DNA of 64,000 bases from assembly GCA_005223035.1 (NCBI GenBank), contig NJBK01000002.1, positions 1 through 64,000 on the forward strand. Reading direction: 5' to 3'. Source of the DNA: Chloroflexi bacterium B3_Chlor. GTDB taxonomy: Bacteria; Chloroflexota; Anaerolineae; UBA7937; B3-Chlor. Below, in pieces: positions 8,352 through 59,024 of this stretch. Position 1 is the stretch's first letter, and each line of letters begins with the position of its first letter. Position numbers and translations under genes: made by a program. The notes below the pieces were generated by a model. That model was not told the origin of the DNA. It made no database searches and saw nothing but the letters and a program-made list of their open reading frames with translations.

Positions 8352-8352
8352 T

Positions 8353-15264: not shown

Positions 15265-15280
15265 TGGCACGCATCTTGCA
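15265..15280 (+). promoter_or_regulatory. Consensus sigma-54 (-24/-12) promoter
   Basis: TGGCACGCATCTTGCA matches the sigma-54 consensus TGGCACG-N4-TTGCA at every defined position, with the GG and GC elements at correct spacing. The predicted start is near 15291, 25-40 bases before the receiver gene. It lies in a non-coding stretch directly downstream of rpoN and an NtrC-type activator gene. Confidence 0.85.
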
Positions 15281-15316
15281 GCACAGTAGTAGCAGGGGGC
15301 TCCACGGCTACACACT

Positions 15317-15739
15317 GTGGGCAGCGAAGAGATGTCGGAAACCTGGGCGAAGTTGCTGATAGCTGAAGACGAGGACACGCTCTCCTTCTTCCTCCGACAA
15401 AGCCTGGAGGACTCCACGCCTCCTTTCGTGGTGGAGGTGGTGGATGCCGGTGACCGGGCTTTGAAGAAGGTGCTCACGGACAAGTTTGATCTCATCATAG
15501 TGGATCTCCGTCTTCCGGATATGGACGGTCTGGCCCTGATCAGGGCTGTGCGGCAGTTCGATCCCTTCATGAAGGTAATCGTGATGACCGCCTACGGCTC
15601 TCCAGATATGGAGCAAGAAGTCAAGAAACTCGGGATTCATGGATATGTCACTAAGCCTTTCGTTATTGAAGACATGAAGAGAATGATAACTCAGATAATG
15701 GCGGACAAACCGTCGTATGGAAGGGGGTCAAGAGCATGA
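15317..15739 (+). CDS. Single-domain response regulator (receiver only)
   Basis: A 140-aa stand-alone receiver from GTG 15317; ATG 15332 (135 aa) is an equally possible start, and neither has a strong ribosome-binding site. Motifs: acidic pair in LLIAEDEDTLS, phospho-acceptor D63 in LIIVDLRLPDMDG, T in VIVMTAYG, and K in YVTKPF. There is no output domain, so it acts by protein contact or as a phosphate relay or sink. It is the first gene after the sigma-54 promoter and overlaps the next by 4 bases (ATGA), so it probably controls the products of the run, for instance the NACHT-TPR protein. That partner assignment is inference. Confidence 0.9.
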   Translation: MGSEEMSETWAKLLIAEDEDTLSFFLRQSLEDSTPPFVVEVVDAGDRALKKVLTDKFDLIIVDLRLPDMDGLALIRAVRQFDPFMKVIVMTAYGSPDMEQEVKKLGIHGYVTKPFVIEDMKRMITQIMADKPSYGRGSRA

Positions 15740-16047
15740 GGTACGAGATTCAGATCGTTATGTCAGTCAGTCTCTTCGTGATTGGAGTGCTGGCGTCGGT
15801 TTCGGGTCTCTGGATCATTCTGGCGAAGGAGTATCACCAGGCGATGAAGCAGTTGTCGGCCCAGTCCATCAGGATCACGGGTCGTGCCATCACGCAAGAC
15901 TCGGTGGCGCCTCTGATCGATTCAGCATCGCGAATGGTGGAGGCCATCAACCAACTGATTCGTACGGCAGCGGGCGTCGGGGCTTTTCTGTGCGTGGTGG
16001 GCGTCATGATCTGCGTTGTCGCCTTTTGGATGATTGGCAGAGTGTAA
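15736..16047 (+). CDS. Small two-helix membrane protein, unknown function
   Basis: A 103-aa protein with membrane helices at about residues 7-30 and 78-100. Between them is a soluble segment of about 45 residues (YHQAMKQLSAQSIRITGRAI, then DSVAPLIDSASRMVEAINQLI) that looks amphipathic and could form a helical signalling stalk. It overlaps the receiver gene by 4 bases, and its stop lies 10 bases before the NACHT gene, so all three are likely co-translated. I do not recognise a family. It may anchor or sense for the receiver and the NACHT protein, or form a membrane pore component. Its position between the two is the only evidence for that. Confidence 0.7.
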   Translation: MRYEIQIVMSVSLFVIGVLASVSGLWIILAKEYHQAMKQLSAQSIRITGRAITQDSVAPLIDSASRMVEAINQLIRTAAGVGAFLCVVGVMICVVAFWMIGRV

Positions 16048-16057
16048 GGGGGAGACG

Positions 16058-19000
16058 ATGAGCGAGATGGAGAGCGGAGGTCTGCCCGAGTCGGCCGAGG
16101 AGGCAGAGGAACACAGCAATGTGGAACTCATAGACGTGCAGACCACCGTGAGGAGATACCTGCAATGTCTGCTGGATGACTTGGAGTTGCAGGATATCTC
16201 ATCCTCGTACCTGCCACTGCGCCTCAGGCCTTTTCGGGGTTTTGCTTCCAGGTCGCAAGAAGGTGACCAGGATGCTGAGCCACGGTCTGACAATTGGCTT
16301 GGGAGTACGTCGGACATTCTTCCAGCCCTTGAAGGTTGGGAAAGGATTGTTCTCCTGGGGAGGGCAGGGGCCGGAAAGACCACCACATTGCGCTGGCTAG
16401 CACATCAGCAGGCAGAACACTTGCTGACTGGGGGCAACTCCCGACTGGAAGGCAAGAGCATACCAGCACAATACCTACCCCTCTTTGTTGAACTGTCCGC
16501 AAGCAACGAGGGTGATGGCTTGCTGAGCGCCCTGGCAGGTGTCTTCGAGAAGTACGAACTGACGGTCAACGAGGAAGCGGTGGGTAACATCCTCGATCGC
16601 AACGCCATCGTGTTTCTCGTCGATGGCCTGGAGCACATTCGTGATAACCAACTGCTGGATGAGCTGGCCCGCTTGGTCGAGTCCGGAAATACGAAGTGTG
16701 TTGTCACATGCCGCACGGAGGACTATGGCGCTTTCCGGCGCTGGCTCGAAGATCCGCTTGTGCTTGAGCTTGAGGATATGGATGAGGAAGAGCGCAGGAC
16801 TTACATACAGAGCCAGCTGCCTGAATCCGCTGGGGCCTTCGCCCTGTCGAGGGCCAGAGGAGAGGAGCCACTGTGGAACCTGCTCAGGATTCCCCTCTTC
16901 TCAACGACATTCGTGGAGCTGGCGGAGCAAGCTGCGAATGGATTGGGGTGGGTCGAAGGCACCACGCTCGTGCAGGAGGGAGTACGGCGGCTATTGGAGG
17001 CCACGACTTCACGGCTGATCGACTTGGACATTGACGAGGCAAGACGCGATTTGGCGGCCCTGGCTCTTCAAATGCAGCGAGTGCGCAAGTCCAATACCCC
17101 TGAGCTTGGTAGTGGACACCTTGTCATCCAGCTTGGTTCCCCAGGAACAGCGGTCTCACCGCAGCGGCTTTCCAGCCTTGCCTCCACGGGCATCATAACC
17201 ATCTCGAAGGCGGAGGACAGCGTATGGTTCGCCGACAGTATGGTGCAGGATTACTTCGCGGCGCTAGCCATGAGTGAGTCCTACACAGGTGCACTGTCCA
17301 AGAGCATCTGTCTCGATTCCGAGGAGACGGCAGAACATTGGGAAGGGGTCTTGCTTCACCTCTACCATTTCTTGTCTGATCGCCTGGGGTACTTGCAGCA
17401 ACTCTTGCAGACTCGGATTGATGGGTGGGGCCCTCGCGTCGCGGCCAAGTGTCTTGCATACAACGAGGATTCTCACGAGGCTCGCCAGCTAGCGGCATCG
17501 CTTGCCCTGGTTGACGCCGTTGATCTGACATCCGTCTACCGGCTGGGGGTAGCGCTCAAAGACCTCGGAAAGAAGGACGACGCTGCCGCTCTGTTCGAGG
17601 GCATGCTTGGGCGTGAGCGAGAGGATTCGCGCCCACGCCAGGAGATGTTGGGCTATCGAGAGAAGTACGGACGAGGTTCCCTCGACTCGTCCTGGCCTGC
17701 ACAACCTGAGCGGATAATCTCGCGGCGAAACCTAGGTCTGCTGTATCGTGAGCTGGATCAGGTCGACAGGGCAGTGACGGAACTGGAGGAAGCTGCCCAG
17801 GGAGCAAATGCCGCCTGCTCGGATACCTATCACGAGTTGGGGCTAGCTTATCTGCAACAGGGGCGCCTTGAGGACGCGTTGACATCATTCCAACACGCAA
17901 TTGCCCTCAATTCTGGAGTGGCTGCCTATCACTACAGCGCAGGCGTCGTGCTGAACCATCTGCAGCGCTACGCTGAGGCTCAGGCGGAGCTTCAGCAAGC
18001 GACTATGTTTGAGCCCGAGGATCCGGGGTCGTATCTGGAGCTGGGCTTTGCCTACGAGAAGCAGGAGTGGTACGAGGAAGCCCTAGCTGCCTATCAGGCA
18101 GCGGAAGCACGCGATCCACGCGAGCCATTGTGTCCACAACGGATCAGCGGACTTCTGTCAGTGCACGAGCGATGGGATGAAGCCGCTCAGGCGTTGCGGC
18201 GTGCGCTGGCGCTTGCACCCAACAAAGCAGATTGGCATTACGAGTTGGGTGAGCTGTATGACCGCCGTGGCCGGCACCGGGACGCACTGGCGGAATACCT
18301 CCATGCAACTGATCTGGATCCGAAGAACCCTGAGTACCTCCACACGGCCGGAGCGCTCTTCCACAAGATGAATCGCCCTGCAAAGGCGATAGACTATCTT
18401 GGTGCAGCGGTGGAATTGGATTCAGGGCGGGCTGACTGGTGCTTTGATCTGGCCTCAGCGATGGCTTCGCAAGGACGGTACGACGAAGCATGGGTTTGGT
18501 CGGAGCGCTCGGTAGGCCTCGCGCCAGACGATCCCCAGCATCAGGTCCTGGCTGGGACGATTCTGCGCCAGCTAGGGCGACGCAGCGAGGCGGAATCCCA
18601 GCTAAGACAGGCCGCGGAACTGGACCCAGAGCTGGCAGTTGCGCGCTGTGAGCTAGGCCTCCTGCTGGAGGACGAGGGACGACGTGACGAAGCCCTGGCC
18701 GAGTATAAAGCTGCAATAGCTCTTGAACCTGAAGATGCAACCCACCACTACGGGATGGGGGTGCTCCTACACGGTATGGGTCAACACGAGAAGGCTGTGG
18801 AGTCCTTGACCAGAGCGATTGAGTTGAATCCTTCCTTTGCTAAAGCAGCTGAGAAGTTAGGTGCCGTCTTCGAAGAAGCCCAGCACGACGGCGACGCATT
18901 GCGGATGTACGACCAGGCAATCTCCATGGACCCGGCGAATGCGAGCTATCATCTGCGTGCGGGTGCTCTGTGCCAGAAGATGGGGCGCGTGGAGGATGCA

Positions 19001-22000
19001 CTGGGCTACTTGGAGGAATCTTCAAAGCTCGATCCACGGAATGGTGAGATCCACTTCTTACTGGGCCAGGTCTATGAGATCGACGGGTCGCTGGAAAGAG
19101 CCTTGGATGAATACCAGGAGGCGATAGCGTATAGCCCGGAGGATGCAGGGTACCACACCTGTGCAGCTTCGGCCGCCCATCGTCTTGGGCGCGTGAATGA
19201 GGCAAAGGCACAGGCTGAGAAGGCCCTGGAACTGGAACATGCCCGTCCAGAACTGAACTACGAGTTGGGTAGGACATTGCAGGAGATAGGTTTGACCGCG
19301 GAGGCGGCCGTGTGTTTTGAGAGGGCTGCGGAAGTCACACCTGAGGAGCCAGAGTTTCAGTTGCACTACGCGAGGGCTCTGCGCGACCTGGGGCGCGTCG
19401 AAGAGGCAATCCGAGTGCTGGAAGCAGTCCGGCGATCACTTGGAGCATCAGCCGCCATCCACGCCGAGTTGGCGGGGCTGTATTCAACACAAGGCAAGAC
19501 AGCTGAGGCTTTGCAGCGGTGGGATGAAGCGATCAGCCTTGAACCCGAGGACGCTTCCTTTCATTTGGGAAAGGGAACACTGTTGCGTCATGACGGTGAG
19601 CCAGAACTCAGTGTGGCCGTGCTTGAGCGAGCTAGTGCGCTGAATGCCGATAATCCAGAGGTCCAATGGCAGCTAGGGCTGAGTCTCGAGGCAGTTGGCC
19701 GCGATGAGGAAGCATGCAAAGCGCATGGACGTGCCTCGAATTTGGCGCCTGACGTCCATATGTACCAACTATCATATGGTATGGCGTGCCGAAGGCAGGC
19801 TGATCTGAGCCAAGCGACCACCGCCCTGGAGGCCGCGATTGAACTGGCTCCGGACGATGCAGAGAGCAACCATCAACTTGGCGACCTCCGCCTCGAGCAA
19901 GGAGAGCTTGATGAAGCGATGGCCCTCCTGGAGAAGGCGTGTGCGCTGGATCCCGATGTTGGGGCGTACCATCGCTCCTTAGGCCGAGCCCACGCCATGA
20001 TGGGCCAGGACGATGAGGCAATCAGTGCTCTTGAGCGTGCAAGCACACTGATTGAGGGAGACGACGAACTGCTGTACGAACTAGCCCGGGCCGCGGACGC
20101 TCAAGATTATACGCACAAGGCGCTGGCTCTATGTCGTCAAGCTCTTGATTTGAAGCCTCACGATGCTCGCTACCTAGCGCAGGCGGCTGAGTTGCTCAGA
20201 AGGCTCGGGGAGGACGAGGAAGCTGTCCAGATCCTGGAACAGGCATCAGAGCAGGACGTGCCAGAGATTCAGCATGTACTGGCTCAGCTGTACCGTTCTC
20301 AGGGTCGACTGGCAGACGCACTGCACGCGGCGGAACGAGCGGTGCGGCTTGCCCGATCCAGTGCGGAGTACAGGACCCATTACGCAGAGGTGCTGGTTGA
20401 CTTGGATCGGGGGGAGGATGCCACGGCGCAGTTGGAGGAAGGCGTCCGACTTGCCCCTGGGAACTCGGCCAACCGGTTCACCCTCGGCCAGCTATACGAG
20501 GAGCAGGGTCTCTTGGAGCAGGCCGTGGATCAGTACACGGAAGCGGCAAGTCTGGCACCTGACCAGTCGGAATACCACTGGCGACTAGGGGGTCTCCTTG
20601 GGAAGCTGGGGCGCTCCGATGAAGCGACGGCGGCATTGGGAAAGGCCATCGCTCTGGACCCGGACGATGTTGAGGCATGCTTGACCGCCGGGCAGGTGCT
20701 GTATCAGCAAGGGTTGTATGAGGAGGCTCTATCGCAGTTCCAACGTGCTTTGGAGCTGGATAGCAGCCTAGTTTCAGCTCAGAGGGCAGCGGGTGCAGCA
20801 TTGCGCTGTCTCGGAGAAGACACCCGAGCGATTGAGGAACTTAGGAAAGCGATCGAATTGGATCCCGCCGATCATGAGACCCACTTTGAACTCGCGACAG
20901 CTTACGCTGCTGTCGGGAATCTGGAACGCGCTGTGGACAGTTGCCAAAGGGCCATTGACCTGGCTCCGGACGAAGCAAGTTACCATGGGCTCAAGGGCAA
21001 CTTGCTGCGGAGACTGGGTCGCTCTGATGAGGCCGAAAAGTGCCTGCGACAGGCGCTGGCCCTGAATGACAGAGACGTTGAGGCCCATTACGAACTGTCG
21101 GTGGTGTATGAGATGCAGGAGAGGTTCGAGGAAGCTGCTAAGTCCCACGAGCGAGCTGTTCAGCTTGCCTCCGACTCACCAGAATTCCGCCAACCGCTGG
21201 CCGTCGTGGCTTCGAGGATTGCCAAATCCCTTCCGTTGTCCCGAGCGTCCTCCTGGTTTGAGGAAGTCGAGCGAGAGTTGCACCAGGTCCTGGCAAGGAG
21301 GCCCGAAGATGCTCTTGCCCATAGCCAACTGGCTCTCATACATGCGAAGAGAGGCAGGGGAGAGAAAGGCCTTGCCGAGTGTAGGAGGGCCATCGAGCTT
21401 GACCCTGACAATCCGCTACACCATCACAATCTAGGTGTGGTGCTCCACAGCATTGGCAGAGGTGAAGAGGCAGTCCAAGAGCTGCTCGCGGCGTGCGACC
21501 TGGATCCCAAAGATCCTGCCAACCACTACGAGTTGGGCGTGACCTACCTCGCTGTAGATCAGTTGGGACCTGCCATAGCAGCTTTGGAGACGGCCACGCA
21601 ACTGGCTCCTGTGCGCGCAGACTATCAGTACGCCCTGGTGATGGCTTACGAACAAGCAGGGCGTGATGACGAGGCCATTTCAGCACTCACCAAAGCCATG
21701 GAGCATAATCCCAACGTTGCCGATAGACATCACCGTCTGGGCGAATTGTACGACAAGGGGGAACGGTACCAATCCGCCTTGGACGCGTACCTGTCAGCGA
21801 TCGAGCTGGAGCCGAAGAAGGCCCAATACTACTTCGACGCAGGCCTTGCGTATAGGCACATGAGACGGTACGAGAAAGCGGCCCACTATCTACAAGAGGC
21901 GCTCAACAGGAGAGACGATGACCCCCGCTGGTGGGCTGAGCTAGGGGCTGCGCTGGAATCGCAGAACCGTTGGGAAGACGCAGAGATGGCATACCAGAAG

Positions 22001-22867
22001 GCTATTCAGCTGGCGCCAGACGAGCCTTTGTACCTCCTGCATCTGGGTAGGTGCTATGAGAAGCTGGGCCGCTATAGCGATGCCGCGGCACAGTATCTGG
22101 AGGCATCTGCCCTGAGGCCGGACTGGGCGCTGGTTCATGAACGTCTGGCTAGCCTGGCAGAGGCACAGGGTGAGCCCCACGAGGCGCTGCTCAGCTATAG
22201 CAAGGCCCTGCAAGCAGATCCGGCCAACCCTAAGTACCATCTGAAGATGGGTGCTTTGCACAAGCGCGAGAAGCGATATGACCTCGCCATGGAAGAGCTC
22301 CACAGGGCGATGGAGTTGTCGGCAGAGGCGCCGGCTGCATACCATGAAATGGCGGAGATATATGAGGAACAGGGCAATCATGATGAGGCCCTACACGCCT
22401 ACCATCAGGCCCTGCGGGTAATGCCCGACGACGTTGCGTCCCATGTCAAGCTTGGTCAGTTGTGTGGACGGCTTGGACACATTGACAAAGCCGCTGCTCA
22501 CTTGAAGAAGGGTATTCAACTGGAGCCTACCGATGCAACCGCTCATTGCGAACTGGGACGGATATTCGAAATGCAGGGGGACCATAGTGCCGCGTTGCAG
22601 GAGTACGACCAGGCACTCCGCTATGAGCCCGATAGTTTTGCTCCCTACTTTGGGGCAGGCATGATCTACAAGAAGATGAAGCAGTACCCCGAAGCCGTGG
22701 AGATGTTCCGTCACGCGGTGAAGCTGGAACCTCATGACAGTGAAGCTTACAAACAATTGGCAGCCACGAGTGCACTGGCCTTCTTCGTGGCCCGGGGCGC
22801 TCGTTCGGCTGACCGATTTCAAGAACGAACCGATGTGGCACAGGAGGCCAAAACAGCGTGTCGCTGA
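16058..22867 (+). CDS. Giant NACHT-type STAND NTPase with about 50 TPR repeats
   Basis: 2,269 aa from ATG 16058, chosen because AGGGGGAG precedes it by 3-4 bases; an upstream in-frame TTG at 16034 lies inside the previous gene. The NTPase domain carries Walker A GRAGAGKT (101-108), Walker B VFLVDGLEH with D189, and VVTCRTEDY (sensor-1-like), a NACHT pattern. A helical region (about 250-480) leads into tetratricopeptide repeats that fill residues about 490-2255. Two TPR types alternate, for example YHYSAGVVLNHLQRYAEAQ then SYLELGFAYEKQEWYEEAL, giving a 68-residue period repeated about 25 times. There is no signal peptide or membrane helix. STAND proteins oligomerise on ligand sensing and activate an effector. 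The effector candidate is the clan-CD peptidase whose gene overlaps this one by 10 bases. Confidence 0.88.
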   Translation: MSEMESGGLPESAEEAEEHSNVELIDVQTTVRRYLQCLLDDLELQDISSSYLPLRLRPFRGFASRSQEGDQDAEPRSDNWLGSTSDILPALEGWERIVLLGRAGAGKTTTLRWLAHQQAEHLLTGGNSRLEGKSIPAQYLPLFVELSASNEGDGLLSALAGVFEKYELTVNEEAVGNILDRNAIVFLVDGLEHIRDNQLLDELARLVESGNTKCVVTCRTEDYGAFRRWLEDPLVLELEDMDEEERRTYIQSQLPESAGAFALSRARGEEPLWNLLRIPLFSTTFVELAEQAANGLGWVEGTTLVQEGVRRLLEATTSRLIDLDIDEARRDLAALALQMQRVRKSNTPELGSGHLVIQLGSPGTAVSPQRLSSLASTGIITISKAEDSVWFADSMVQDYFAALAMSESYTGALSKSICLDSEETAEHWEGVLLHLYHFLSDRLGYLQQLLQTRIDGWGPRVAAKCLAYNEDSHEARQLAASLALVDAVDLTSVYRLGVALKDLGKKDDAAALFEGMLGREREDSRPRQEMLGYREKYGRGSLDSSWPAQPERIISRRNLGLLYRELDQVDRAVTELEEAAQGANAACSDTYHELGLAYLQQGRLEDALTSFQHAIALNSGVAAYHYSAGVVLNHLQRYAEAQAELQQATMFEPEDPGSYLELGFAYEKQEWYEEALAAYQAAEARDPREPLCPQRISGLLSVHERWDEAAQALRRALALAPNKADWHYELGELYDRRGRHRDALAEYLHATDLDPKNPEYLHTAGALFHKMNRPAKAIDYLGAAVELDSGRADWCFDLASAMASQGRYDEAWVWSERSVGLAPDDPQHQVLAGTILRQLGRRSEAESQLRQAAELDPELAVARCELGLLLEDEGRRDEALAEYKAAIALEPEDATHHYGMGVLLHGMGQHEKAVESLTRAIELNPSFAKAAEKLGAVFEEAQHDGDALRMYDQAISMDPANASYHLRAGALCQKMGRVEDALGYLEESSKLDPRNGEIHFLLGQVYEIDGSLERALDEYQEAIAYSPEDAGYHTCAASAAHRLGRVNEAKAQAEKALELEHARPELNYELGRTLQEIGLTAEAAVCFERAAEVTPEEPEFQLHYARALRDLGRVEEAIRVLEAVRRSLGASAAIHAELAGLYSTQGKTAEALQRWDEAISLEPEDASFHLGKGTLLRHDGEPELSVAVLERASALNADNPEVQWQLGLSLEAVGRDEEACKAHGRASNLAPDVHMYQLSYGMACRRQADLSQATTALEAAIELAPDDAESNHQLGDLRLEQGELDEAMALLEKACALDPDVGAYHRSLGRAHAMMGQDDEAISALERASTLIEGDDELLYELARAADAQDYTHKALALCRQALDLKPHDARYLAQAAELLRRLGEDEEAVQILEQASEQDVPEIQHVLAQLYRSQGRLADALHAAERAVRLARSSAEYRTHYAEVLVDLDRGEDATAQLEEGVRLAPGNSANRFTLGQLYEEQGLLEQAVDQYTEAASLAPDQSEYHWRLGGLLGKLGRSDEATAALGKAIALDPDDVEACLTAGQVLYQQGLYEEALSQFQRALELDSSLVSAQRAAGAALRCLGEDTRAIEELRKAIELDPADHETHFELATAYAAVGNLERAVDSCQRAIDLAPDEASYHGLKGNLLRRLGRSDEAEKCLRQALALNDRDVEAHYELSVVYEMQERFEEAAKSHERAVQLASDSPEFRQPLAVVASRIAKSLPLSRASSWFEEVERELHQVLARRPEDALAHSQLALIHAKRGRGEKGLAECRRAIELDPDNPLHHHNLGVVLHSIGRGEEAVQELLAACDLDPKDPANHYELGVTYLAVDQLGPAIAALETATQLAPVRADYQYALVMAYEQAGRDDEAISALTKAMEHNPNVADRHHRLGELYDKGERYQSALDAYLSAIELEPKKAQYYFDAGLAYRHMRRYEKAAHYLQEALNRRDDDPRWWAELGAALESQNRWEDAEMAYQKAIQLAPDEPLYLLHLGRCYEKLGRYSDAAAQYLEASALRPDWALVHERLASLAEAQGEPHEALLSYSKALQADPANPKYHLKMGALHKREKRYDLAMEELHRAMELSAEAPAAYHEMAEIYEEQGNHDEALHAYHQALRVMPDDVASHVKLGQLCGRLGHIDKAAAHLKKGIQLEPTDATAHCELGRIFEMQGDHSAALQEYDQALRYEPDSFAPYFGAGMIYKKMKQYPEAVEMFRHAVKLEPHDSEAYKQLAATSALAFFVARGARSADRFQERTDVAQEAKTACR

Positions 22868-27899: not shown

Positions 27900-27930
27900 G
27901 TACGTTATGAGAAGGGAGAAGGTGTCACGC

Positions 27931-28446
27931 GTGGAGGAGTACGAGGACATGGGCGGCGGCTATGCGCATGAGGATCAGGTGCAATTGCCCCCTCACGAAA
28001 TGAGCTTGTTCATAGACGAGCTTGAGGACCTGATCTGCACCGGCGTCAGAGTGCCTCTGACGGCAAAGGCGGTTGTTGATCAGGAACAGTGTCTGGATAC
28101 TCTGCAAGTGCTTCGCGCCAACTGGCCCTGGGAGATGCTGGAGGCGAAACGCATCCTCTCGCAAGAGGGAGAAGTGCTGGAAAGGGCGGAGGTAGAGGCT
28201 GAGGAGATCAGACAACGCGCCGAGCGACAGGCAGCCGTGATTCTTGATCAGAGTCAACTCGTGAAGATGGCGGAGGTCCGTGCCCAGGAAGTACTTGAGG
28301 CAGCGGAGCAAGAGGCGACCCAGCTATTGCAGCGCGCTGAGCAGGATGTCAGGGATGTGTATTTGGGTTTGGAGCGAGAGCTGGAGCTGCTGTTGCGCGA
28401 CATCAAAGGACTGGTGGCAGCTCGCTTGGGCAGGTTGAGAAGCTAA
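27931..28446 (+). CDS. Coiled-coil protein of the DivIVA / F0-b-like type
   Basis: 171 aa from GTG 27931, which has GGGAGAAGG 8 bases upstream; ATG 27907 is the alternative and would add 8 residues. After a charged N-terminus comes MSLFIDELEDLICTGVRVPLTAKAVVD. This resembles a short family I know from Chloroflexota and actinobacteria that is loosely annotated as cell-division initiation or ATP-synthase-b-like. From about residue 70 to the end the chain is a long Glu/Ala/Arg coiled coil (RAEVEAEEIRQRAERQAA). Such proteins polymerise or scaffold at membranes and septa. It lies between the twin-barrel gene and MraZ, 27 bases before the latter. A division or polarity scaffold is plausible; no enzyme motif is present. 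Confidence 0.65.
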   Translation: MEEYEDMGGGYAHEDQVQLPPHEMSLFIDELEDLICTGVRVPLTAKAVVDQEQCLDTLQVLRANWPWEMLEAKRILSQEGEVLERAEVEAEEIRQRAERQAAVILDQSQLVKMAEVRAQEVLEAAEQEATQLLQRAEQDVRDVYLGLERELELLLRDIKGLVAARLGRLRS

Positions 28447-28473
28447 GTGGATGGAGCAGATGAGGGCAGGGGG

Positions 28474-28908: not shown

Positions 28909-28945
28909 TTGGCATGTGATTTGAAACCTGGTAAAGGGAGCTGGT

Positions 28946-31573: not shown

Positions 31574-31586
31574 AGGAGGCGCCTGG

Positions 31587-32777
31587 ATGAACGAGTCAGA
31601 TGACGGGCTGTCACACGTAGAGGAGGGACCGATGACTCGGCAATACAACCAACCACTGATCAAAGTCATCGGAATCGGGGGCGGAGGCGGCAACGCCGTT
31701 GACAGGATGATTCACGTCGGTATTCCGGGGGTGCAGTTCATGGCCGCGAACACCGACGCTCAAACCCTTGCCCGGTCGGAGGCCCCGCACAAGGTACAAC
31801 TTGGCCCGCAGACTACCAGAGGCCTGGGGGCTGGAGGCGACGCTGAGGTAGGAGCTAGGGCAGCTGAAGAAAGCTCGGAGGCGCTGGTGGAGGTCTTGAG
31901 GGGAGCGGAAATTGTGTTCCTGGCCTTGGGTCTGGGTGGCGGTACAGGCACGGGCGCAGGACCAGTCATCGCGGAGTTGGCGCGACAGGTTGGAGCTTTG
32001 ACCGTAGCCGTCGCGACGACGCCGTTCAGCTTCGAGGGGCGCAAACGGGCCGAGACAGCCATGGAAGGAATGCGGGCCCTAGCGACGAAGTCAGACACTC
32101 TCATCGCCATCTCCAATGACCGTCTACTGGAGTTCATTGATGAGGAGACTTCGCTCGATATCTCCTTTCGCATAGCCGATGAGGTGCTCAGGCAGGGGAT
32201 TCAGGGGGTGGCTGAGCTCATCACGAGTACAGGCCTAATCAATCTCAATCTGATGCACGTGAGAACGGTACTGCAGAACGCCGGTTCGGCGCTGATGTCA
32301 ATTGGACAAGGCCGGGGAGATGATCGGGCGGTAGAGGCCGCACACCTGGCGATCGCCAGCCCACTCACCCAGCTATCATCCATAGCAGGAGCGTCGGGAA
32401 TCCTGGTCAACATCACGGGTGGTGCCGACCTGTCGCTAGACGAGATCCAGCAGGCCGTGAGCACAATAGCTGGGGTTGCTAGTCCTGATGCCAACATCTT
32501 CTTCGGGGCCACGGTCGATCCCAACATGGGAACGCAACTTCAAGTCATGCTCATCGCCGTAGGAATGGACGGCCTGACACGAGTACGCCCTGTGGATTCG
32601 CTAGTCTCTCACGGACAGCCGTATCGCAGTTCGGCAGCGCACCCCTTCAGGGCTGAAGGGGCAGGACTGCACCGTTTCGACCGCTCCCAGCAGGGCACCG
32701 ATCTCCATGATCTGGACGTTCCCACCTTCCTGAGACGTCGTAGATTGGGGAGGATAGCGGAGGAACAGTATGAGTAG
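31587..32777 (+). CDS. FtsZ paralogue with degenerate catalytic T7 loop but intact C-terminal peptide
   Basis: 396 aa from ATG 31587 (AAGGAGG 7 bases upstream; ATG 31632 also has a site). The GTP-binding core is well kept: VIGIGGGGGNAVDRM, AANTDAQ and the tubulin signature GGGTGTGA at 117-124. The T7 synergy loop, normally NxDxxD with two Asp that hydrolyse the neighbour's GTP, reads N219-L-N-L-M-H224, so both Asp are lost. The protein ends with a canonical FtsZ tail, LDVPTFLRRRR, the site that binds SepF/FtsA-type anchors. It should bind GTP and perhaps co-polymerise but not activate hydrolysis, acting as a cap or stabiliser of Z filaments. It overlaps the 78-aa gene by 8 bases. A second, normal ftsZ is expected elsewhere in the genome. 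Confidence 0.88.
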   Translation: MNESDDGLSHVEEGPMTRQYNQPLIKVIGIGGGGGNAVDRMIHVGIPGVQFMAANTDAQTLARSEAPHKVQLGPQTTRGLGAGGDAEVGARAAEESSEALVEVLRGAEIVFLALGLGGGTGTGAGPVIAELARQVGALTVAVATTPFSFEGRKRAETAMEGMRALATKSDTLIAISNDRLLEFIDEETSLDISFRIADEVLRQGIQGVAELITSTGLINLNLMHVRTVLQNAGSALMSIGQGRGDDRAVEAAHLAIASPLTQLSSIAGASGILVNITGGADLSLDEIQQAVSTIAGVASPDANIFFGATVDPNMGTQLQVMLIAVGMDGLTRVRPVDSLVSHGQPYRSSAAHPFRAEGAGLHRFDRSQQGTDLHDLDVPTFLRRRRLGRIAEEQYE

Positions 32778-33006: not shown

Positions 33007-33024
33007 GAGCCAAAGCGAGGGTTG

Positions 33025-34665: not shown

Positions 34666-34714
34666 GTACTGATAGACCGCTCGCTGCGGGGAACTCGGTT
34701 CTGGAGGTTTCGGC

Positions 34715-34852: not shown

Positions 34853-34947
34853 AACTTTGGTTGCTGGACAAGAACCTAGTGACATATTGGGACGAGTGAC
34901 TGGCGCCGGATCATTCCGCGGGAATCACCCGGCAAGGAGGTAGAGGA

Positions 34948-36675
34948 ATGAGGAAGAGGATGTGCCGTATGGTCGTGGTGTTCATTGTGCTCGCGCTTCT
35001 CGCAGGCCTCGGTTCTCCTGTCTGGGGGGCGCCCGAGTCCGAGCGGCGAGCTACAGCGTCACTGCTCCACATAGTGCAGTGGGGGGAGAACCTTACATTG
35101 ATAGCTCGGCGATACGGAGTTACCACCGGGGCCATTGTGCAGGCGAACGGGATAGCCAATCCCAACTACATCTACGCAGGACAGAGACTGGTGATCCCAA
35201 CGCCTTCGCCATCTCCTTCACCGCCTTCGTCAGGTACGACGACAACCTATGTGGTGCGCAGGGGAGATACCCTGTCAGGCATTGCGTACCGCTTCGGAAC
35301 CACAGTCAACACCATCGTGTCGTTGAACGGGCTGGTGAATCCGAACCTCATCTTCGGCGGCCAGACGTTACGCATCCCTGGGCAGGGACAGCCGTCCCAA
35401 CCGGATCAGCCGACTGAGACCTGCGTCTATGTCGTGAAGGCGGGCGACAACTTGACGAGGATCGCACTCGCCTACCGCACAACGGTGTGGGCCATCGCCA
35501 TTGCCAATAACTTGGCAAACCCCTCCTTCATCTGGGTCAGCCAGCGGCTGGTGATACCGGGCTGCTCACCCAGCAGTTCACCCACGCCAACACCGGGACC
35601 GCCCGGTCCAGCACCTCAGCCAACGGCCACTCCGGCACCGACCGTGCAGCCCGGCCCGGTGCCTCGGATGAATACCCCGGAGTACGGAGTGCATACCTTT
35701 CTGTGGTGGAACGGCGAGTACCGCGCTCGAGACGCACAAATGGTTAAAGACGCAGGACTCACCTGGGTCAAGGAGCTATTCCCCTGGAGGAGCATCGAGG
35801 GGGCGGGCAAAGGCATTTTCAACTGGTCGGTTGCGGACCAAGTGGTCCAGACACTGAATGATCGCGGATTGAAGGTCATTGCTCGGGTTGATTTCCAGCC
35901 TGCCTGGGCCAGAGCCGCCGGTGCCAATAACGGACCCCCGGACAACTATCGTGACTACGGTGACTTCTTGTATGCGATGGCCAGCCGCTATCGGGGGAGG
36001 ATTCAGGCTTATGAGATCTGGAATGAGCCGAATCTTGCCCGTGAATGGGGTGATCGGCCGCCCAACGCTGCAGAGTATGTGGCACTGCTAAGGGTTGCGT
36101 ATCGCCGCATCAATGAGGCTGACCCCAATGCCGTGGTCATCACCGCAGGCCTGGCTCCAACGGGAACCGGTCTGCCCCACGCCATTCCCGACGTCCGGTA
36201 CCTGCGTGAGATGTACCAGGCAGGCGCCAAGAACTATTTTGACGTGCTCGGAGTCCACGCCCCCGGTTACAAAGCTGCCCCAGAGACCAGTCCTAGCGAA
36301 GTGCAGAACAACCCCGCGCTAGGGGGCAGGCGCTTCTTCTGCTTCCGGCGTGTGGAAGACCTGCGCCAGGTCATGGTGGAGAACGGGGACGCAGGAAAGC
36401 AGATGGCGGTCCTGGAGTTTGGGTGGACAAGCGATCCCAGGCCTGGTTCTCCATACAATTGGCACGCGGTGTCGGAGGAGACAAAGGCTGACTACATAGT
36501 ACGTGCCTTCCAGTGGGCTCGCGACCATTGGTCACCATGGATGGGCGTGATGACTGTGCTGTCCATCGCGGATACAGCATGGACGGAGGACGATGAGCAG
36601 TACTGGTGGGCCATCACCAATCCTGATGGCACCACTAGGCTAGCCTATGACGCGCTGAGAAGCGCTCCCAAGTAG
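34948..36675 (+). CDS. LysM(x3)-glycoside hydrolase (clan GH-A-like), exported
   Basis: 575 aa with a signal peptide ([20 protein letters not shown], cleavage near VWGAP). Three LysM domains at about 41-85, 98-141 and 155-200 are followed by a Pro/Thr-rich linker and a TIM-barrel catalytic domain (about 240-570). Both glutamates are present: E360 in [12 protein letters not shown] (acid/base) and E490 in AVLEFGW (nucleophile). AAGGAGGTAGAGG precedes ATG 34948. The LysM array places the enzyme on peptidoglycan, so it may cleave a wall-linked polysaccharide. The barrel is related to those in the twin-barrel proteins of this run and to the secreted enzyme at 3796. Exact substrate unknown. Confidence 0.88.
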
Positions 36676-36694
36676 GCAGGGAGGAGGTCATCCA

Positions 36695-37234
36695 TTGACT
36701 CGTAGGATCGCATTGCTATGGGTGTCTGGGGTGTGCATCGTTGCGATGTTGGCAATTGGCGGTTGCACAAGGGAGAAGCCAATGGCAACACCAACAGCCA
36801 CGGCGCAAGGGGAGATTGAGCTCGTTTCGCCGTCACCCACCCCGTTGCCTGTGAGCACACCGTCGCTGCCTGAGCCCATCCACTATACGGTACAGGCAGG
36901 GGACACGGTGTGGGCTATCGCAGACCGTTTTGGCGTCACGCCGGACGCACTGGTAGAGGCCAACGCTCTGTTGGAACCAGATCGTTTGCAGCCTGGCCAG
37001 GAGCTTCTCATCCCTACTGGGGATGAGACGGCAAGCGACGAACCTGCCCCTACAGAATCTCCTTCAGCCGACACAGGGACTACGGAGGGCGGGCGCATAC
37101 ATACGGTCCGCGGTGGGGATACTTTGTGGAGCATCGCCATACGGTACGACACGACAGTGGATGAGATTGCCACACTTAATGAGCTGGACCCTGAGGGAAT
37201 CTTGGCCCTTGGGCAGCAGTTGCTGATCCCATAG
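36695..37234 (+). CDS. Lipoprotein with two LysM domains
   Basis: 179 aa. A lipobox (LAIGGC, Cys near 24) follows a hydrophobic signal, so the mature protein should be lipid-anchored. After a Pro/Thr/Ser linker come two LysM domains: YTVQAGDTVWAIADRFGV (about 64-107) and HTVRGGDTLWSIAIRYDT (about 135-178). The start is TTG 36695 with GGAGGAGG upstream. It lies 20 bases after the LysM-glycosidase gene and 39 before the SpoIID-barrel gene. It probably tethers the membrane to peptidoglycan or recruits enzymes to the wall. Confidence 0.85.
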   Translation: MTRRIALLWVSGVCIVAMLAIGGCTREKPMATPTATAQGEIELVSPSPTPLPVSTPSLPEPIHYTVQAGDTVWAIADRFGVTPDALVEANALLEPDRLQPGQELLIPTGDETASDEPAPTESPSADTGTTEGGRIHTVRGGDTLWSIAIRYDTTVDEIATLNELDPEGILALGQQLLIP

Positions 37235-37273
37235 CGCACAGGCGCGCGAGTATGGCCATACAGGAGGGTGATC

Positions 37274-40200
37274 GTGAACTTGCTTGACTATCCTAGACCG
37301 AGACGAGACACCGGCATAGGGTTTCACTGGTTTCCAGACCAGTGGCACTATGAGCAACGTTACTTCGACATCTTCGTGCCGGAGTTGAAGGCGATGGGAA
37401 CCAGCTGGCTCCTGGTTCTCTCGGATGGACTGAGAACGATCCCGGACTGGTTCCTTCGAGGGCTGATGGAGCACGACATTGAGCCGATCATCCGCGTCTA
37501 CACCCGGTTTGTCACCTTTCTCGACCAGGCTGGGCTCCGCCGCGCGTGCGAGCACTACGCATCACTGGGTGTCCACTACGTGCATGTGTTCAACGAGCCA
37601 AACCTGAAGCACGAGTGGGCGGAGTGGAGTAGTGAGCGTCTGCCTGCCCGATTCATGGACTTCCTGATGCCGTGCTTGGAAACGATGTACGCGGTGGAGG
37701 GGATAATTCCGGTCCTCACCCCCCTGAGCCCCGGCGGCGACTACTGGGACACCTCCTTTTTGAAGTCTACGTTAGCCATTATTAACCAGCGCGGAAAGAA
37801 GTATCTGTATGACAGAATGGCTATTGGAATCCATAATTATGCCTTCAACAAGCCCCTGACCTACGGGAAGGGAGGAAGCGCCAGGTGGCGATGCGCACGA
37901 CCTTACCAGCGCCCTCCGGGCTGTGAAGATCACACAGGGTTCCATATGTTCGAATGGTACGACGAGATAGTCCGTCAGCACACTGGGCGGCGCCTTCCGA
38001 TGATCGGCTGCGAGAATGGGGTGCGGCTGGGTGACGCCGACGATCCTCGTTCTCCCGCCATCAACGAAGCGCTCCACGCCGAGCGCCATGCCGCCATGTG
38101 TCAAATGGTGATGAATGGGGAGGTGCCATATTACTTCTTTAACAATGCTTTCTGGTTGCTTGCGGCTGAGGACGACAACTTCTTCGTCCGCCACAGTTGG
38201 TATAGGCCCCATGGAGAACCTCGCCTGCCCCAGTCCGTTGCCCGATTGAAAGCCCTGACAAAAGTGGAGCGACCCCTGCGAGTGCACGTGCCTGATGAGA
38301 TAAGAGTCCTGATGACCGACGGCGATGTCAGGGTGATGAGGCTTGAGGAGTACTTGAGAGGCGTGCTGCCACTAGAGATGGGGGATGACGCCGCAGGTGA
38401 GGCTCTGAAAGCTCAGGCCGTGGCCGGTCGCTGCTACGCGGCATACGCAGTGGCCAATCCGAGGCACAGTGCACAAGGTGCTGATGTCTGTACCACGACT
38501 CATTGCCAGGTCTGGTCGCCAGAGACCTACCTAACCACTGATGTCGCAGTCCAAGAAACTGCAAGTGTAGTAGCCCTGCATGGCGATGAGGTGATCCAAG
38601 CCTTCCACTTCGCCCACTGTGATGGGCACACTCGCAACAGTGAGGATGTCTGGGTGCGAGCCTTGCCCTATTGCAGGAGTGTTCCGTGCACCAGACCGTA
38701 CCCGTCGATGCATGGACACGGCGTTGGAATGTGCAAACGTGGGGCGATGGCGATGGCAGAGCAAGGGGCTACCTACGTGGACATTCTGACGCACTACTAT
38801 ACAGATATCCACGTTGTGGGAGCGGATAGGGTACCGGTGGACACGTGGCCAGAACAGAGAACGGGATATTCGGATTGGCCTCGTCCACGTGCCGACAACG
38901 GTTTGGGCATCCACGCGGGACTGGACTTCTCGGAGGAGGCCCTAACCGCAGATGTGGCGCGGGCAGAGGAACTGAATCTCAAATGGGTGCTACTGGCACC
39001 GGAAGATGAGACACAACTGCGAAGGGCGGTGTCAGCCTACTGGCAAAAGGATATTATGCCCGTCGTGAGGCCACGGTGTTTGGTTGATGAGGATCATGAC
39101 TTCGTCAAGGACGCGAGGCTGATGCTAGAGATGGACATTCCAGCCTATGTCCAAGTGTACAATGCTCCCGAGCAGGCTGAGGAGTGGAGGACAGGGCGGA
39201 CAGATATGGAAGTGTTTGCCTCGCGCTGGCTGACTCAAGCCGAGGCTCTAGTCGAGGCCGATGCCTACCCCGGATTGCAGGTGAATAGGGTTGAGGATTT
39301 GAGAACAGTTATCGAAGAGGCGAAGAGCCAAGGCCTACAACATATCTTCCGCCATGCCTGGTTCTGTGCCCACAACTATGGGAGAAACCGTCCGGCTCGG
39401 TATCCATACGATGCTATCAACCAACGAGCGCTCCCTGTCCAGCATCCAGAGTGGGAGTTTGCAGGGTCGATAGAGGAGGTGAATCGCTGGCGCAGGGAGG
39501 GCCAGCAGCCCGGCCAGGATATCAGCGGAAACTATGATTGCGTTTTGGGATTCCTGGGCTACGCCAGGGTATTCGAGCACGAGTTGGGCTACGTCCCACC
39601 CTTCATCTGTGGTGATGGCGGGTGGAAGTATGGTGATCTCAGCGATCGCCGCTACCCCAAGGTGACTGACTTCCTGCATCAGGCACATCATATGGCCATG
39701 TTCGCTTGGTTCAGGGATGGAATGCTCACGCACGGTGGTCGGTTGCCGGAATACCTGTTCGCAGTATGTCCTTGGATCCTATCAGGCCGCGACGATCCAG
39801 CCGCCTGGTACGATGGTCCACAAGGCACTCGAGGGCAAACGATAGCTTCTGTGGCGGCCATGTCTCGTTTCGTGCGCTCTGGGGTCCCGGTGGTCCCGCC
39901 TGCCCCGTCCCCGCCGCCCCCATCGCCTGAACCAGCGCCAGTACCTGAGCCAGCACCTCCGCCGAGCCCCGGGCAGCCCCAGGCGAACTGGAGTATGACC
40001 GTCGAGCGCCGGCCACGAACTGATGGTGTGAAAGCGATCGCCGGCTGTTTCCCGCGCCAAGGAATTCGGCTTGACGTCACTGATCCTTGGGGGAATTGTG
40101 TGAGTGTCACTAGTGGCACAAAGGCCGAGTACGGTCCAGGCGGTTTTGAGGCGCGCGTTTGGGCCGACGCGGTCTTCACACTGCGCTTCTTGAACGAGGC

Positions 40201-40390
40201 CTTTCAGGTTGATGTGAACCAGGAAATCGTGGTCTTGACCTTCAGTGAGAACGGGTCAGAAGAGGGCTTCGAAGAACCAGCCGAGGCTGATACGCGGCTG
40301 GTGACAAACTGGATGGAACCAGATGTGGTTGAAGAACTCCTCCAAGATCTTGGCCGCTACGAGGGGCTCTTCACAATGGAGACGCAGTAA
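37274..40390 (+). CDS. Barrel-SpoIID-barrel protein: glycosidase-like barrel, SpoIID/LytB domain, degenerate second barrel
   Basis: 1,038 aa from GTG 37274 (AGGAGG 6 bases upstream). Barrel 1 (about 1-330) keeps E108 in VFNEPNL and E247 in IGCENG. A SpoIID/LytB domain (about 345-515) follows, with the catalytic-type Glu E368 in VLPLEMGDD, then ALKAQAVAGRCYAAYA and HGHGVGMCKRGAMAMA. SpoIID is a lytic transglycosylase acting on peptide-free glycan strands during sporulation. Barrel 2 (about 535-865) has lost its acid/base Glu (YNAPEQ, A631) and carries D781 in ICGDGGW. A Pro-rich linker and beta domain (about 900-1000) end the chain. Barrels 1 and 2 align with those of the protein at 25452, where the intact site is the opposite one. 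No signal peptide is visible. It is probably a peptidoglycan-remodelling enzyme. Confidence 0.85.
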   Translation: MNLLDYPRPRRDTGIGFHWFPDQWHYEQRYFDIFVPELKAMGTSWLLVLSDGLRTIPDWFLRGLMEHDIEPIIRVYTRFVTFLDQAGLRRACEHYASLGVHYVHVFNEPNLKHEWAEWSSERLPARFMDFLMPCLETMYAVEGIIPVLTPLSPGGDYWDTSFLKSTLAIINQRGKKYLYDRMAIGIHNYAFNKPLTYGKGGSARWRCARPYQRPPGCEDHTGFHMFEWYDEIVRQHTGRRLPMIGCENGVRLGDADDPRSPAINEALHAERHAAMCQMVMNGEVPYYFFNNAFWLLAAEDDNFFVRHSWYRPHGEPRLPQSVARLKALTKVERPLRVHVPDEIRVLMTDGDVRVMRLEEYLRGVLPLEMGDDAAGEALKAQAVAGRCYAAYAVANPRHSAQGADVCTTTHCQVWSPETYLTTDVAVQETASVVALHGDEVIQAFHFAHCDGHTRNSEDVWVRALPYCRSVPCTRPYPSMHGHGVGMCKRGAMAMAEQGATYVDILTHYYTDIHVVGADRVPVDTWPEQRTGYSDWPRPRADNGLGIHAGLDFSEEALTADVARAEELNLKWVLLAPEDETQLRRAVSAYWQKDIMPVVRPRCLVDEDHDFVKDARLMLEMDIPAYVQVYNAPEQAEEWRTGRTDMEVFASRWLTQAEALVEADAYPGLQVNRVEDLRTVIEEAKSQGLQHIFRHAWFCAHNYGRNRPARYPYDAINQRALPVQHPEWEFAGSIEEVNRWRREGQQPGQDISGNYDCVLGFLGYARVFEHELGYVPPFICGDGGWKYGDLSDRRYPKVTDFLHQAHHMAMFAWFRDGMLTHGGRLPEYLFAVCPWILSGRDDPAAWYDGPQGTRGQTIASVAAMSRFVRSGVPVVPPAPSPPPPSPEPAPVPEPAPPPSPGQPQANWSMTVERRPRTDGVKAIAGCFPRQGIRLDVTDPWGNCVSVTSGTKAEYGPGGFEARVWADAVFTLRFLNEAFQVDVNQEIVVLTFSENGSEEGFEEPAEADTRLVTNWMEPDVVEELLQDLGRYEGLFTMETQ

Positions 40391-40468
40391 CATCGGCGGG
40401 TCCAGGCGGTTCGCTCGCTCGGCGGTGGAAGACGACAGAGAACACGACTGAGGAGGTGTAGAGACAAG

Positions 40469-40927
40469 ATGGAAACCGGAACGGAGATGAGAAGCAGCAG
40501 GCTGTTCATGGTGATTGCTCTGGTACTTACGGCGTCGCTGTTCCTCGGTTTGCTGGGCATCGGAGGGCTTGTCCTTTTCAAGTTCCTCGCCGGGCCCACG
40601 GAGGTCGCCATGCCCCCCGAGATAGAGGCGCCCACTACTGAGCCTGAGGTTCCTGCCACACCAACTCTTTCTGCCTTGCCCAGTGCGACACCAACAGCGG
40701 CACCGACAGCGACCTTGGTCGTCGCCGCAACCACTGCAAGTCCGCCTGTTGAAGGCTCGGACAACGGCACCGGGCATGATGCGCCAGGCATGAGCAGTCC
40801 TGGGCCGGAGTCATCAGAGATGCCGCAGACCGGACTTGGCCTGCTCGAGACGCTGGGGGTCGGGTTGGCGTTGATCTGCCTACTCAGCGCCACTCGTGTC
40901 GCCCGCAGGTTGAGAGTGGAAAGATAG
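40469..40927 (+). CDS. Membrane-anchored Pro/Thr-rich protein with MPQTG sortase-like tail
   Basis: 152 aa. An N-terminal membrane helix (about 12-38) is followed by a Pro/Thr/Ala/Ser-rich, probably glycosylated stalk, then EMPQTG, a hydrophobic stretch (LGLLETLGVGLALICLL) and a basic tail (RVARRLRVER). This three-part end is the layout of a sortase sorting signal. GGAGG lies before ATG 40469. The protein would be displayed on, or covalently linked to, the wall. No sortase gene is in the window. The alternative is a two-helix membrane protein with a chance MPQTG. Confidence 0.65.
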   Translation: METGTEMRSSRLFMVIALVLTASLFLGLLGIGGLVLFKFLAGPTEVAMPPEIEAPTTEPEVPATPTLSALPSATPTAAPTATLVVAATTASPPVEGSDNGTGHDAPGMSSPGPESSEMPQTGLGLLETLGVGLALICLLSATRVARRLRVER

Positions 40928-40998
40928 GTCTGGAGGCAGAGAACAGTCTCTGGCTGTTGCGATATCTACATCTACACTAGGCTGGGAGGAGACATTCA

Positions 40999-42351
40999 GT
41001 GATTCGGCAGCCTGAGTTAAACCGCGTGTCCCCACTTGCCCGGGTTGATCGGATTGTGAGTACTATACTGGCGTTAGCCTTTCTCGTAACCGGCTTCCAG
41101 ACGGGCTATCGTCTGACACACGGGGCAGGGCACCTCCTTGGTGGGGTCCAATGGTCACTGGGGAGTGGACACGTCTCTGGCGCACAAGTCCCGTTGGACA
41201 CACCGGTGCGCGTAAAGGAGCCGTTACCTGTTTGGCAGGGAAGGGAGCGGTTGAATATCCTGATCATGGGACTGGATCAACGCCCGGGCTCAGCGTTGCC
41301 AGGACGAGCTGATGTAATCATGATCGCCAGTGTGGACCCTGTGGAAAGGAGGGTTGTCCTGCTTTCCATCCCTCGGGACCTGTGGGTCGAGGTACCGGGA
41401 CACGGCGAGAACAGGATCAACAGCGCGTATTTCTATGGAGAGTTCGAAGGTACCCAAGGGGGTGGACCTGGTCTAGTGAAGAGGACTCTCGAGCACAACT
41501 TCGGAGTCACCATCGACTACTACGGAACACTTGATTTTGAATGCTTCAAACGGATCGTAGACGTCTTGGGTGGTATCACCATTGACGTGCCTGAGTCGAT
41601 TAGGGATGACCGCTATCCAGATGACACCTATGGTTACATGAGGATCTACATCCCAGCCGGGAGGCAGCACATGAACGGCGAGACTGCCTTGCAGTACGTG
41701 AGGGCTCGCCACGAAACGAGTGACTTCTCCAGGATGCGTCGGCAACAGCAGGTGCTCTTGGCTGTGCGCGAGAAAGCGTTGAGGCTGGACATTATCTTCT
41801 CGCTACCTGAGTTGCTGCCCCTGCTCGGCAAAGCCTTCTCAACCGACTTGCCGCCCCAGGATGTGATGGCTCTAGCCAATCTGGCGGCCCACATCGAACT
41901 CCAAGACACGCAGCTGCGAGTAGTTGACGAGTCGTTGACCATTCCATATGTGGCTCCAGACGGCGCACAGGTACTTCTTCCAAGGCTGGATCGGATTCGG
42001 GCGATGATATCTCACTTGCTGGACAGTTCGCCTGTCTCTGAAGAGTCCCGGCTCCCGGAAGTGGCAGACGCACGCATCCTGGTGCGGGCTGATGTCTCTA
42101 GGCCAGGACTAGCCCAAGAGGTGGCCGATTTGTTGCAGCGCCGGGGCTACAATGCATGGGCCCAAGGTGATGGTATTCAGATTGAGTCGGAGGGAACCTT
42201 CATCGCCAGCCGCCGTGAAATGGCCGAGACTGCCGTTCTACTATCCGCGCTGTTGCGGGCGGGTCCAGAATTCGCCATCCTGGATCCCGAGGTGGAGGAG
42301 GGGAGAGATATCGTGGTGACGCTTGGGCGTAGTTTCGTGATGCCTAGGTAG
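40999..42351 (+). CDS. LytR-CpsA-Psr (LCP) family phosphotransferase
   Basis: 450 aa from GTG 40999 with GGGAGGAG 8 bases upstream. One membrane helix (about 20-42) precedes the LCP domain (about 85-275): LNILIMGLDQRPG, then RADVIMIASVDPVERRVVLLSIPRDLWV, then RINSAYFYG, IDYYGTLDFECF, VDVLGGITIDVP and ALQYVRARHETSDFSRMRRQQ. A LytR_C-like domain (about 350-440) ends the chain. LCP enzymes transfer lipid-linked glycopolymers onto peptidoglycan at the outer face of the membrane. It is the last gene of the rightward run and the clearest sign that the run modifies the wall. Confidence 0.92.
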   Translation: MIRQPELNRVSPLARVDRIVSTILALAFLVTGFQTGYRLTHGAGHLLGGVQWSLGSGHVSGAQVPLDTPVRVKEPLPVWQGRERLNILIMGLDQRPGSALPGRADVIMIASVDPVERRVVLLSIPRDLWVEVPGHGENRINSAYFYGEFEGTQGGGPGLVKRTLEHNFGVTIDYYGTLDFECFKRIVDVLGGITIDVPESIRDDRYPDDTYGYMRIYIPAGRQHMNGETALQYVRARHETSDFSRMRRQQQVLLAVREKALRLDIIFSLPELLPLLGKAFSTDLPPQDVMALANLAAHIELQDTQLRVVDESLTIPYVAPDGAQVLLPRLDRIRAMISHLLDSSPVSEESRLPEVADARILVRADVSRPGLAQEVADLLQRRGYNAWAQGDGIQIESEGTFIASRREMAETAVLLSALLRAGPEFAILDPEVEEGRDIVVTLGRSFVMPR

Positions 42352-59002: not shown

Positions 59003-59024
59003 GAGGGGCTGCGCCCTTTCCTCT

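Follow-up and report, generated by a model that had tools for sequence, protein, structure and literature searches.

A conserved sigma-54-headed gene run joining a caspase-like peptidase, an FtsZ paralog and cell-wall enzymes in Anaerolineae

Analysis of contig NJBK01000002.1 of Chloroflexi bacterium B3_Chlor led to a run of 15 genes behind a sigma-54 promoter, which is, judging from sequence, a sigma-54-controlled system with its own RpoN/NtrC pair. The window presented here is the first 64 kb (64,000 nucleotides) of this 129-kb contig, part of a 2.8-Mb metagenome-assembled genome (MAG) of the class Anaerolineae, phylum Chloroflexota. We read the run, with a probability of roughly 0.45, as a programme of filamentous Chloroflexota that remodels septum and envelope upon a signal. 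No published description of this combination of parts was found in the open-access literature, in agreement with an earlier interpretation made from the letters of the window only (hereafter the sequence-only reading). The same reading had suggested that the genes form one system. This holds in that the run is conserved, is headed by a sigma-54 promoter and brings division and wall genes together with a STAND/TPR protein and a clan-CD peptidase, but the NACHT domain is not a core part. The one-system view is strengthened by the sigma-54 sites of homologous loci, the RpoN/NtrC pair, the association with a second FtsZ and the sites found at unlinked FtsZ loci.

Sigma-54 control and extent of the run

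The promoter of the run (Table 1) is a perfect -24/-12 element and the sole zero-mismatch match in the window, confirming the consensus promoter proposed earlier, while matches with up to two mismatches are no more frequent in the window than chance predicts. Genome-wide, the zero-mismatch pattern was met 8 times in 2.8 Mb against 3 for a reversed control pattern, and several of these matches were judged to be due to chance (e.g., G000:C1:12021, inside a coding gene). Recurrence in relatives was studied in samples of 396 genomes of the class and 400 of the phylum; most of the compared genomes are MAGs, and some apparent losses may reflect assembly gaps. A sigma-54 site of the GG-N10-GC type with 0-1 mismatches precedes the gene of the receiver or of the two-transmembrane (two-TM) protein in 22 of 24 homologous loci, a set that includes some near relatives, the exceptions being L075 and G252. 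RpoN (E < 1e-20) and the two-TM gene occur together in 35/40 genomes (Fisher p = 2e-36); they lie at most 10 kb apart in 26 of these 35, and in the remainder they are on different contigs of fragmented assemblies. Nearly all carriers checked have one strong sigma-54 activator (PF00158), which belongs to the operon itself; a second one is present in G044 and G201, and in G004 the activator is on another contig. Additionally, a barrel-FtsZ gene pair is unlinked from the operon in three Anaerolineaceae genomes, with a sigma-54 site just upstream in 3/3. In another genome (G009), zero-mismatch sites were observed upstream of large secreted proteins with PKD/cohesin/dockerin (L120:2027-7750) and CBM96/Ig domains (L121:7126-10545), which may possibly be further members of the regulon.

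A GGGGAATTTTCCCC-like motif is located approximately 110-350 bases upstream of the promoter in families f1, f2, f3 and f26 and in three further loci, and it is doubled at a spacing of 18-20 bases in f2 and f26. It also occurs upstream of rpoN in f3 and f2 and at two unlinked sigma-54 sites. A pair of this type stands ahead of an unlinked kinase gene in G004 and of an unlinked paralog of the SpoIID-barrel gene in G005, where the pair is accompanied by a sigma-54 site. Loci L137-L141 of G004 carry the motif, often paired at 18-19 bases, near dinB-like and other genes that have no sigma-54 site. Since it is present there away from such sites, the motif was downgraded from a proven to a putative activator site.

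The conserved locus also reaches upstream of the promoter and takes in RpoN, the kinase, the receiver-kinase and the NtrC-type activator (6933-14830). The last two genes open with a near-identical receiver domain (11307-11700 and 13445-13840), and the bases ahead of them are alike (aggggagggcg), which suggests that a partial duplication or gene conversion took place recently. From the promoter to 42351 every gene is on the plus strand, as described before, although 15 genes were counted instead of the 17 reported then. Most of them overlap or are less than 100 bases apart, again as described, but there are two gaps of more than 240 bases, at 32778-33021 after the FtsZ-like gene and at 34666-34947 after the first LysM gene. 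Neither gap holds a terminator-like or sigma-70-like match; because of these gaps the run is only putatively a single transcript.

Conservation and the core trio

The two-TM gene is present in 40 of the 396 class genomes, and the system gives one match per genome. The whole run is kept in two other genera of the same family (approximately 53-89% protein identity). In two further families of the order, the receiver, two-TM, NACHT-TPR, C25, DivIVA-like, MraZ-like, amidase, FtsZ-like, LysM, SpoIID-barrel and LCP genes follow in the same order. Families f1-f3 of the order retain the arrangement, as do f4, f26 and others of the class, across which the genes run RpoN, kinase, NtrC, two-TM, giant TPR and C25, followed by barrel, FtsZ and wall genes in varying completeness. 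Loss of this order in relatives had been named by the sequence-only reading as grounds for giving it up; the order is kept across families, and with the adjacency seen outside the class it led us to reject a chance juxtaposition. A minimal form is seen in Bellilinea caldifistulae (RpoN, kinase, NtrC, two-TM, TPR and C25, then an apparent alanyl-tRNA synthetase) and in the single-contig genome G252, which has no giant gene. Kinase, activator and two-TM genes of the system were also noticed after a secA-like gene in DDXK01000076 (L072), labelled Desulfobulbaceae UBA2262, which is probably a mis-binned Chloroflexota contig.

The two-TM protein is the best conserved small member, with 54-79% identity across families. 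Its 48-residue loop carries 6 Lys/Arg, against one in each tail, so that by the positive-inside rule the loop is probably cytoplasmic; the protein would then anchor the TPR protein. Families f1-f4, f26 and a few others have the NACHT P-loop, which is absent in the tested Ardenticatenales and Bellilinea-type loci. NACHT was therefore rejected as a core part, for there is no Walker A in these loci and no giant gene in G252; by the same comparison the two-TM protein and the C25 peptidase are the invariant parts, NACHT being dispensable. The His-Cys dyad of the peptidase (NLHG; E(A/S)C(Y/F)G) is invariant in every ortholog that covers both residues. A model of the peptidase (mean predicted local distance difference test score, pLDDT, 75) gave gingipain K (Kgp, E-value = 3e-9) as the best fold match, followed by Csx29 and weakly by SAVED-CHAT, and with the dyad this places the peptidase in family C25 of clan CD with a gingipain fold. 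The C25 and barrel profiles returned no useful match when searched against PDB sequences, and the matches came from the fold search.

The C25-domain profile found matches in 30/400 genomes of the phylum, 18 of these in other classes. Among 15 loci read from other classes, 8 have the two-TM, giant TPR and C25 genes adjacent, while in the f96 loci C25 is accompanied by a barrel protein but not by the other two. An Amidase_2 gene is located upstream of the trio in f107 genomes (one of them a single contig of 5,801,598 bases) and in f128, and in G521 the trio comes after mraZ and rsmH, with one gene between. The contig that G521 shares between trio and mraZ-rsmH (L170/L165) also has two FtsZ genes approximately 1.2 kb apart. 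No RpoN and NtrC were seen beside any locus read outside the class, and therefore the trio is probably the older part, to which Anaerolineae would have added the sigma-54 circuit and the FtsZ paralog.

Division and wall genes

At least two FtsZ genes were found in 19/22 carrier genomes, whereas each of the 20 class genomes that lack the two-TM gene has a single copy (p = 3e-9). Operon copies are split from the canonical ones by a branch with 97/99 support, in an unrooted tree where two very divergent operon copies sit on long branches. The T7 loop of FtsZ contains Asp residues that are required for GTP hydrolysis. Canonical copies all carry N-x-D-F-A-D, while the window paralog, which falls outside the canonical group, has NLNLMH in place of the canonical N-x-D-x-x-D; the second Asp is replaced by H or S in operon copies of f1, f2, f3, f53 and f26, and f1 has lost the first Asp too. 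As the residues needed for hydrolysis are replaced, impaired GTP hydrolysis is expected in these copies. Very divergent operon FtsZ genes with broken GTP-binding or T7 motifs were observed at L136:16103-17365 (G044) and L086:16638-17858, as if the enzyme function were being lost altogether. The grouping of MraZ- and FtsZ-family genes resembles the division and cell wall (dcw) cluster, as does the trio that follows mraZ-rsmH in G521. However, the operon carries divergent paralogs of both; in the source genome the canonical FtsZ and another MraZ gene sit elsewhere, and there are no mur/fts synthesis genes in the operon.

Profile searches of the window proteins (Pfam/NCBIfam) bore out the domains assigned before, i.e., receiver, NACHT-TPR, C25, MraZ, Amidase_2, FtsZ, LysM, SpoIID and LCP. 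The two proteins described as twin barrels (25452, 37268) gave no Pfam barrel match, but an AlphaFold2 model of one barrel (pLDDT 87) matches TIM-barrel glycosidases, with PslG as the best match. The catalytic Glu residues of glycoside hydrolase clan A (acid/base and nucleophile) are retained in some barrels and lost in others. None of the barrel orthologs examined shows a signal peptide or hydrophobic leader by hydropathy, in contrast to the N-terminal hydrophobic segments of the amidase, LysM and LCP proteins. LysM is found in three operon proteins. The SpoIID/LytB domain was identified by TIGR02669 and its catalytic Glu is kept in 9/9 orthologs; a SpoIID homolog has been reported to cleave glycan strands at the division septum of chlamydiae (PMC6635528).

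Table 1. Positions of the regulators, control elements and genes of the run in the window.
Feature	Position	Strand	Basis and remarks
RpoN (sigma-54), dedicated sigma factor of the system	6933..8351	+	PF04963/PF04552; near two-TM gene in relatives
Sensor histidine kinase with SBP_bac_3, PAS and GAF domains	8353..11310	+	Pfam; orthologs
Receiver-GAF-PAS-histidine kinase	11307..13448	+	Pfam
NtrC-type sigma-54 activator (receiver-AAA-Fis helix-turn-helix), only strong one in the genome	13445..14830	+	Pfam
Enhancer-like palindrome GCGGAATTCTCCGC	14973..14986	.	Weak match to relatives' motif GGGGAATTTTCCCC; putative activator site
Sigma-54 promoter TGGCACGCATCTTGCA	15265..15280	+	Pattern match; recurrence in relatives
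Single-domain response regulator (receiver)	15317..15739	+	PF00072, 3e-26
Two-TM membrane protein, 103 aa, core	15736..16047	+	Conservation across families
Giant NACHT-TPR protein, 2277 aa, putative scaffold/sensor	16034..22867	+	NACHT PF05729, 1.5e-11, then long TPR region
Cytoplasmic TPR-C25 (gingipain/caspase-like) peptidase, core	22858..25455	+	TPR plus Peptidase_C25, 2.9e-16; invariant His-Cys dyad
Leaderless twin TIM-barrel protein	25452..27899	+	Hydropathy; fold match
Coiled-coil DivIVA-like protein	27868..28446	+	Pfam match below cut-off
Divergent MraZ paralog	28447..28908	+	MraZ, 3.7e-19; another MraZ gene elsewhere (G000:C70)
Secreted PGRP-type N-acetylmuramoyl-L-alanine amidase with Ig/CARDB domains	28946..31573	+	Amidase_2, 1.7e-20
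FtsZ paralog (longest open reading frame; real start probably ~31590)	31482..32777	+	GTPase 1e-44, C-terminal domain 1e-27; T7 loop NLNLMH
LysM protein with N-terminal hydrophobic segment	33022..34665	+	Pfam; hydropathy
LysM plus glycosidase-like (GH5/42-like) protein	34948..36675	+	Pfam
LysM lipoprotein-like protein	36695..37234	+	Pfam; hydropathy
Leaderless twin TIM-barrel protein with SpoIID (lytic transglycosylase) domain	37268..40390	+	SpoIID 1.4e-18; TIGR02669 9.6e-46; catalytic Glu conserved
Surface anchor protein with MPQTG sorting-like C-terminus	40469..40927	+	Sequence; orthologs
LCP (LytR-CpsA-Psr) glycopolymer transferase	40999..42351	+	LCP, 7e-42

Downstream of the operon, a propeller-like protein, a subtilase and a GATase-like gene (43437-48338) are kept with it only within family f1 among the compared loci. 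Further on, three successive large multi-TM proteins, alike in start and length, are located at 57431-62637 and are apparently tandem duplicates.

Proposed function and alternatives

In the remodelling programme proposed here, an external signal would be sensed by the solute-binding sensor kinase and lead to activation of the NtrC-type protein, which together with the dedicated RpoN would switch on one operon. The two-TM protein would hold the giant TPR (often NACHT) scaffold at the membrane, in a putative physical complex where the scaffold controls the cytoplasmic caspase-like peptidase, which would act on a presumed substrate. GTPase-impaired FtsZ, DivIVA-like and MraZ-like proteins may redirect or restrain normal division, while the amidase, SpoIID, barrel, LysM and LCP proteins would cut and re-decorate the peptidoglycan at the septum, their predicted location. 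Cell separation, filament fragmentation or specialised division would be the outcome, fragmentation or specialised division appearing the most likely. Septum or envelope remodelling is suggested by the second FtsZ, the MraZ-like and DivIVA-like genes, the lytic enzymes and, in other genomes, the neighbouring mraZ-rsmH and amidase genes. A conditional programme is indicated by the kinase together with the dedicated RpoN and activator, and a proteolytic switch by the invariant caspase-like dyad. A broader proposal, which we put forward only tentatively, is an undescribed phylum-wide system of Chloroflexota, in which a membrane-anchored TPR/STAND scaffold and a caspase-like C25 protease would act on a modified, FtsZ2-based septum; in Anaerolineae its own sigma-54 circuit would bring about signal-triggered septum cleavage, fragmentation or cell fate in multicellular filaments.

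Several points weigh against the remodelling programme. Apart from the two long gaps that interrupt the run and the enhancer-like motifs at several places of G004 without a sigma-54 site, the T7-loop change is not universal, as operon copies of f4, f27 and f54 retain both Asp. The barrel and SpoIID proteins are leaderless, which is hard to reconcile with their acting directly on the septal wall except through export or lysis. In other classes the trio lacks the FtsZ paralog, RpoN and most wall genes, and minimal sigma-54 forms occur in Bellilinea and G252; for these reasons wall remodelling may be an accessory output. Finally, the function is deduced from sequence.

A starvation-induced differentiation into a resting, cyst- or spore-like cell, where modified division and wall turnover produce a dormant cell, would also account for SpoIID plus amidase, the DivIVA-like protein and the FtsZ paralog, as well as for sigma-54/NtrC control with a solute-binding sensor kinase. 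The SpoIID lytic transglycosylase and amidase in one operon recall the engulfment machinery of endospores (SpoIID/SpoIIP/SpoIIM), the analogy drawn by the sequence-only reading. However, this SpoIID lies within a leaderless glycosidase-like barrel protein under sigma-54 control, and no coat, germination or forespore sigma genes were seen in the operon. Cultured members of the Anaerolineae form filaments, are non-motile and have been described as non-sporulating (PMC4877987), and Spo0A was found in 0/12 genomes searched; endosporulation is therefore unlikely and was rejected, the engulfment analogy is not supported, and differentiation into a resting cell in general is also unlikely. The nutrient-type sensor and dedicated sigma-54 are at the same time a poor match for a conflict or abortive-infection system, in which the NACHT-TPR protein would sense invasion or damage and activate C25, and the wall hydrolases would lyse the cell, to the protection of its filament neighbours. 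Such a system would have the NACHT and clan-CD protease architecture seen here, wall hydrolases lacking a leader could, like a small two-TM protein, come into play once the membrane is damaged, and conflict systems of a related kind are enriched in multicellular bacteria and have rare FtsZ members (PMC7159879). A TPR-coupled clan-CD cysteine peptidase beside a STAND/TPR protein is indeed shared with TPR-CHAT/Csx29 (Craspase) and NACHT/TPR-caspase systems, and the fold matches of the peptidase include Csx29 of the type III-E CRISPR effector, second to gingipain K, and weakly SAVED-CHAT. However, the peptidase is closer to C25/gingipain, there is no CRISPR or nuclease, and NACHT is not conserved. 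The conserved order across families, the single match per genome, and the LCP, MraZ-like, DivIVA-like and FtsZ parts under sigma-54 do not fit well either. PADLOC matches TPR repeats only, which makes a known defence system unlikely; this candidate was rejected, with clpPX and others in the chromosomal context, as was a prophage or mobile origin, since no mobile or defence genes were seen in the loci read. A conflict role of the NACHT-peptidase pair, which the sequence-only reading had likened to conflict or cell-death systems, is quite improbable, although a cell-death role is possible.

The remaining alternative is an ordinary regulon for envelope maintenance or surface polymers, where sigma-54 controls the exterior and the STAND/protease genes serve as a stress sensor. 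A general role of sigma-54 in controlling the bacterial exterior, peptidoglycan included, has been proposed (Francke et al., 2011, PMC3162934), and such regulons share with this locus an RpoN and activator over envelope genes. The LCP, LysM and anchor proteins of the operon would agree with this, as would the G009 sites ahead of large surface proteins. What is found here differs in that one activator serves essentially one main operon with a division paralog and a caspase-like protease, and the operon has no flagellar or nitrogen genes. As it leaves unexplained the strict second FtsZ, the MraZ-like and DivIVA-like genes and the trio beside mraZ-rsmH in another class, we regard this alternative as very doubtful.

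If the remodelling programme is confirmed, it would mean that a phylum whose filaments are hardly understood at the cellular level devotes a sigma-54 regulon to division and wall remodelling, and that a bacterial caspase-like protease is tied to an FtsZ paralog. The genes described here can serve as a marker set for asking whether multicellular bacteria separate or sacrifice cells by controlled proteolysis, and a cultured carrier, B. caldifistulae, makes the system testable.

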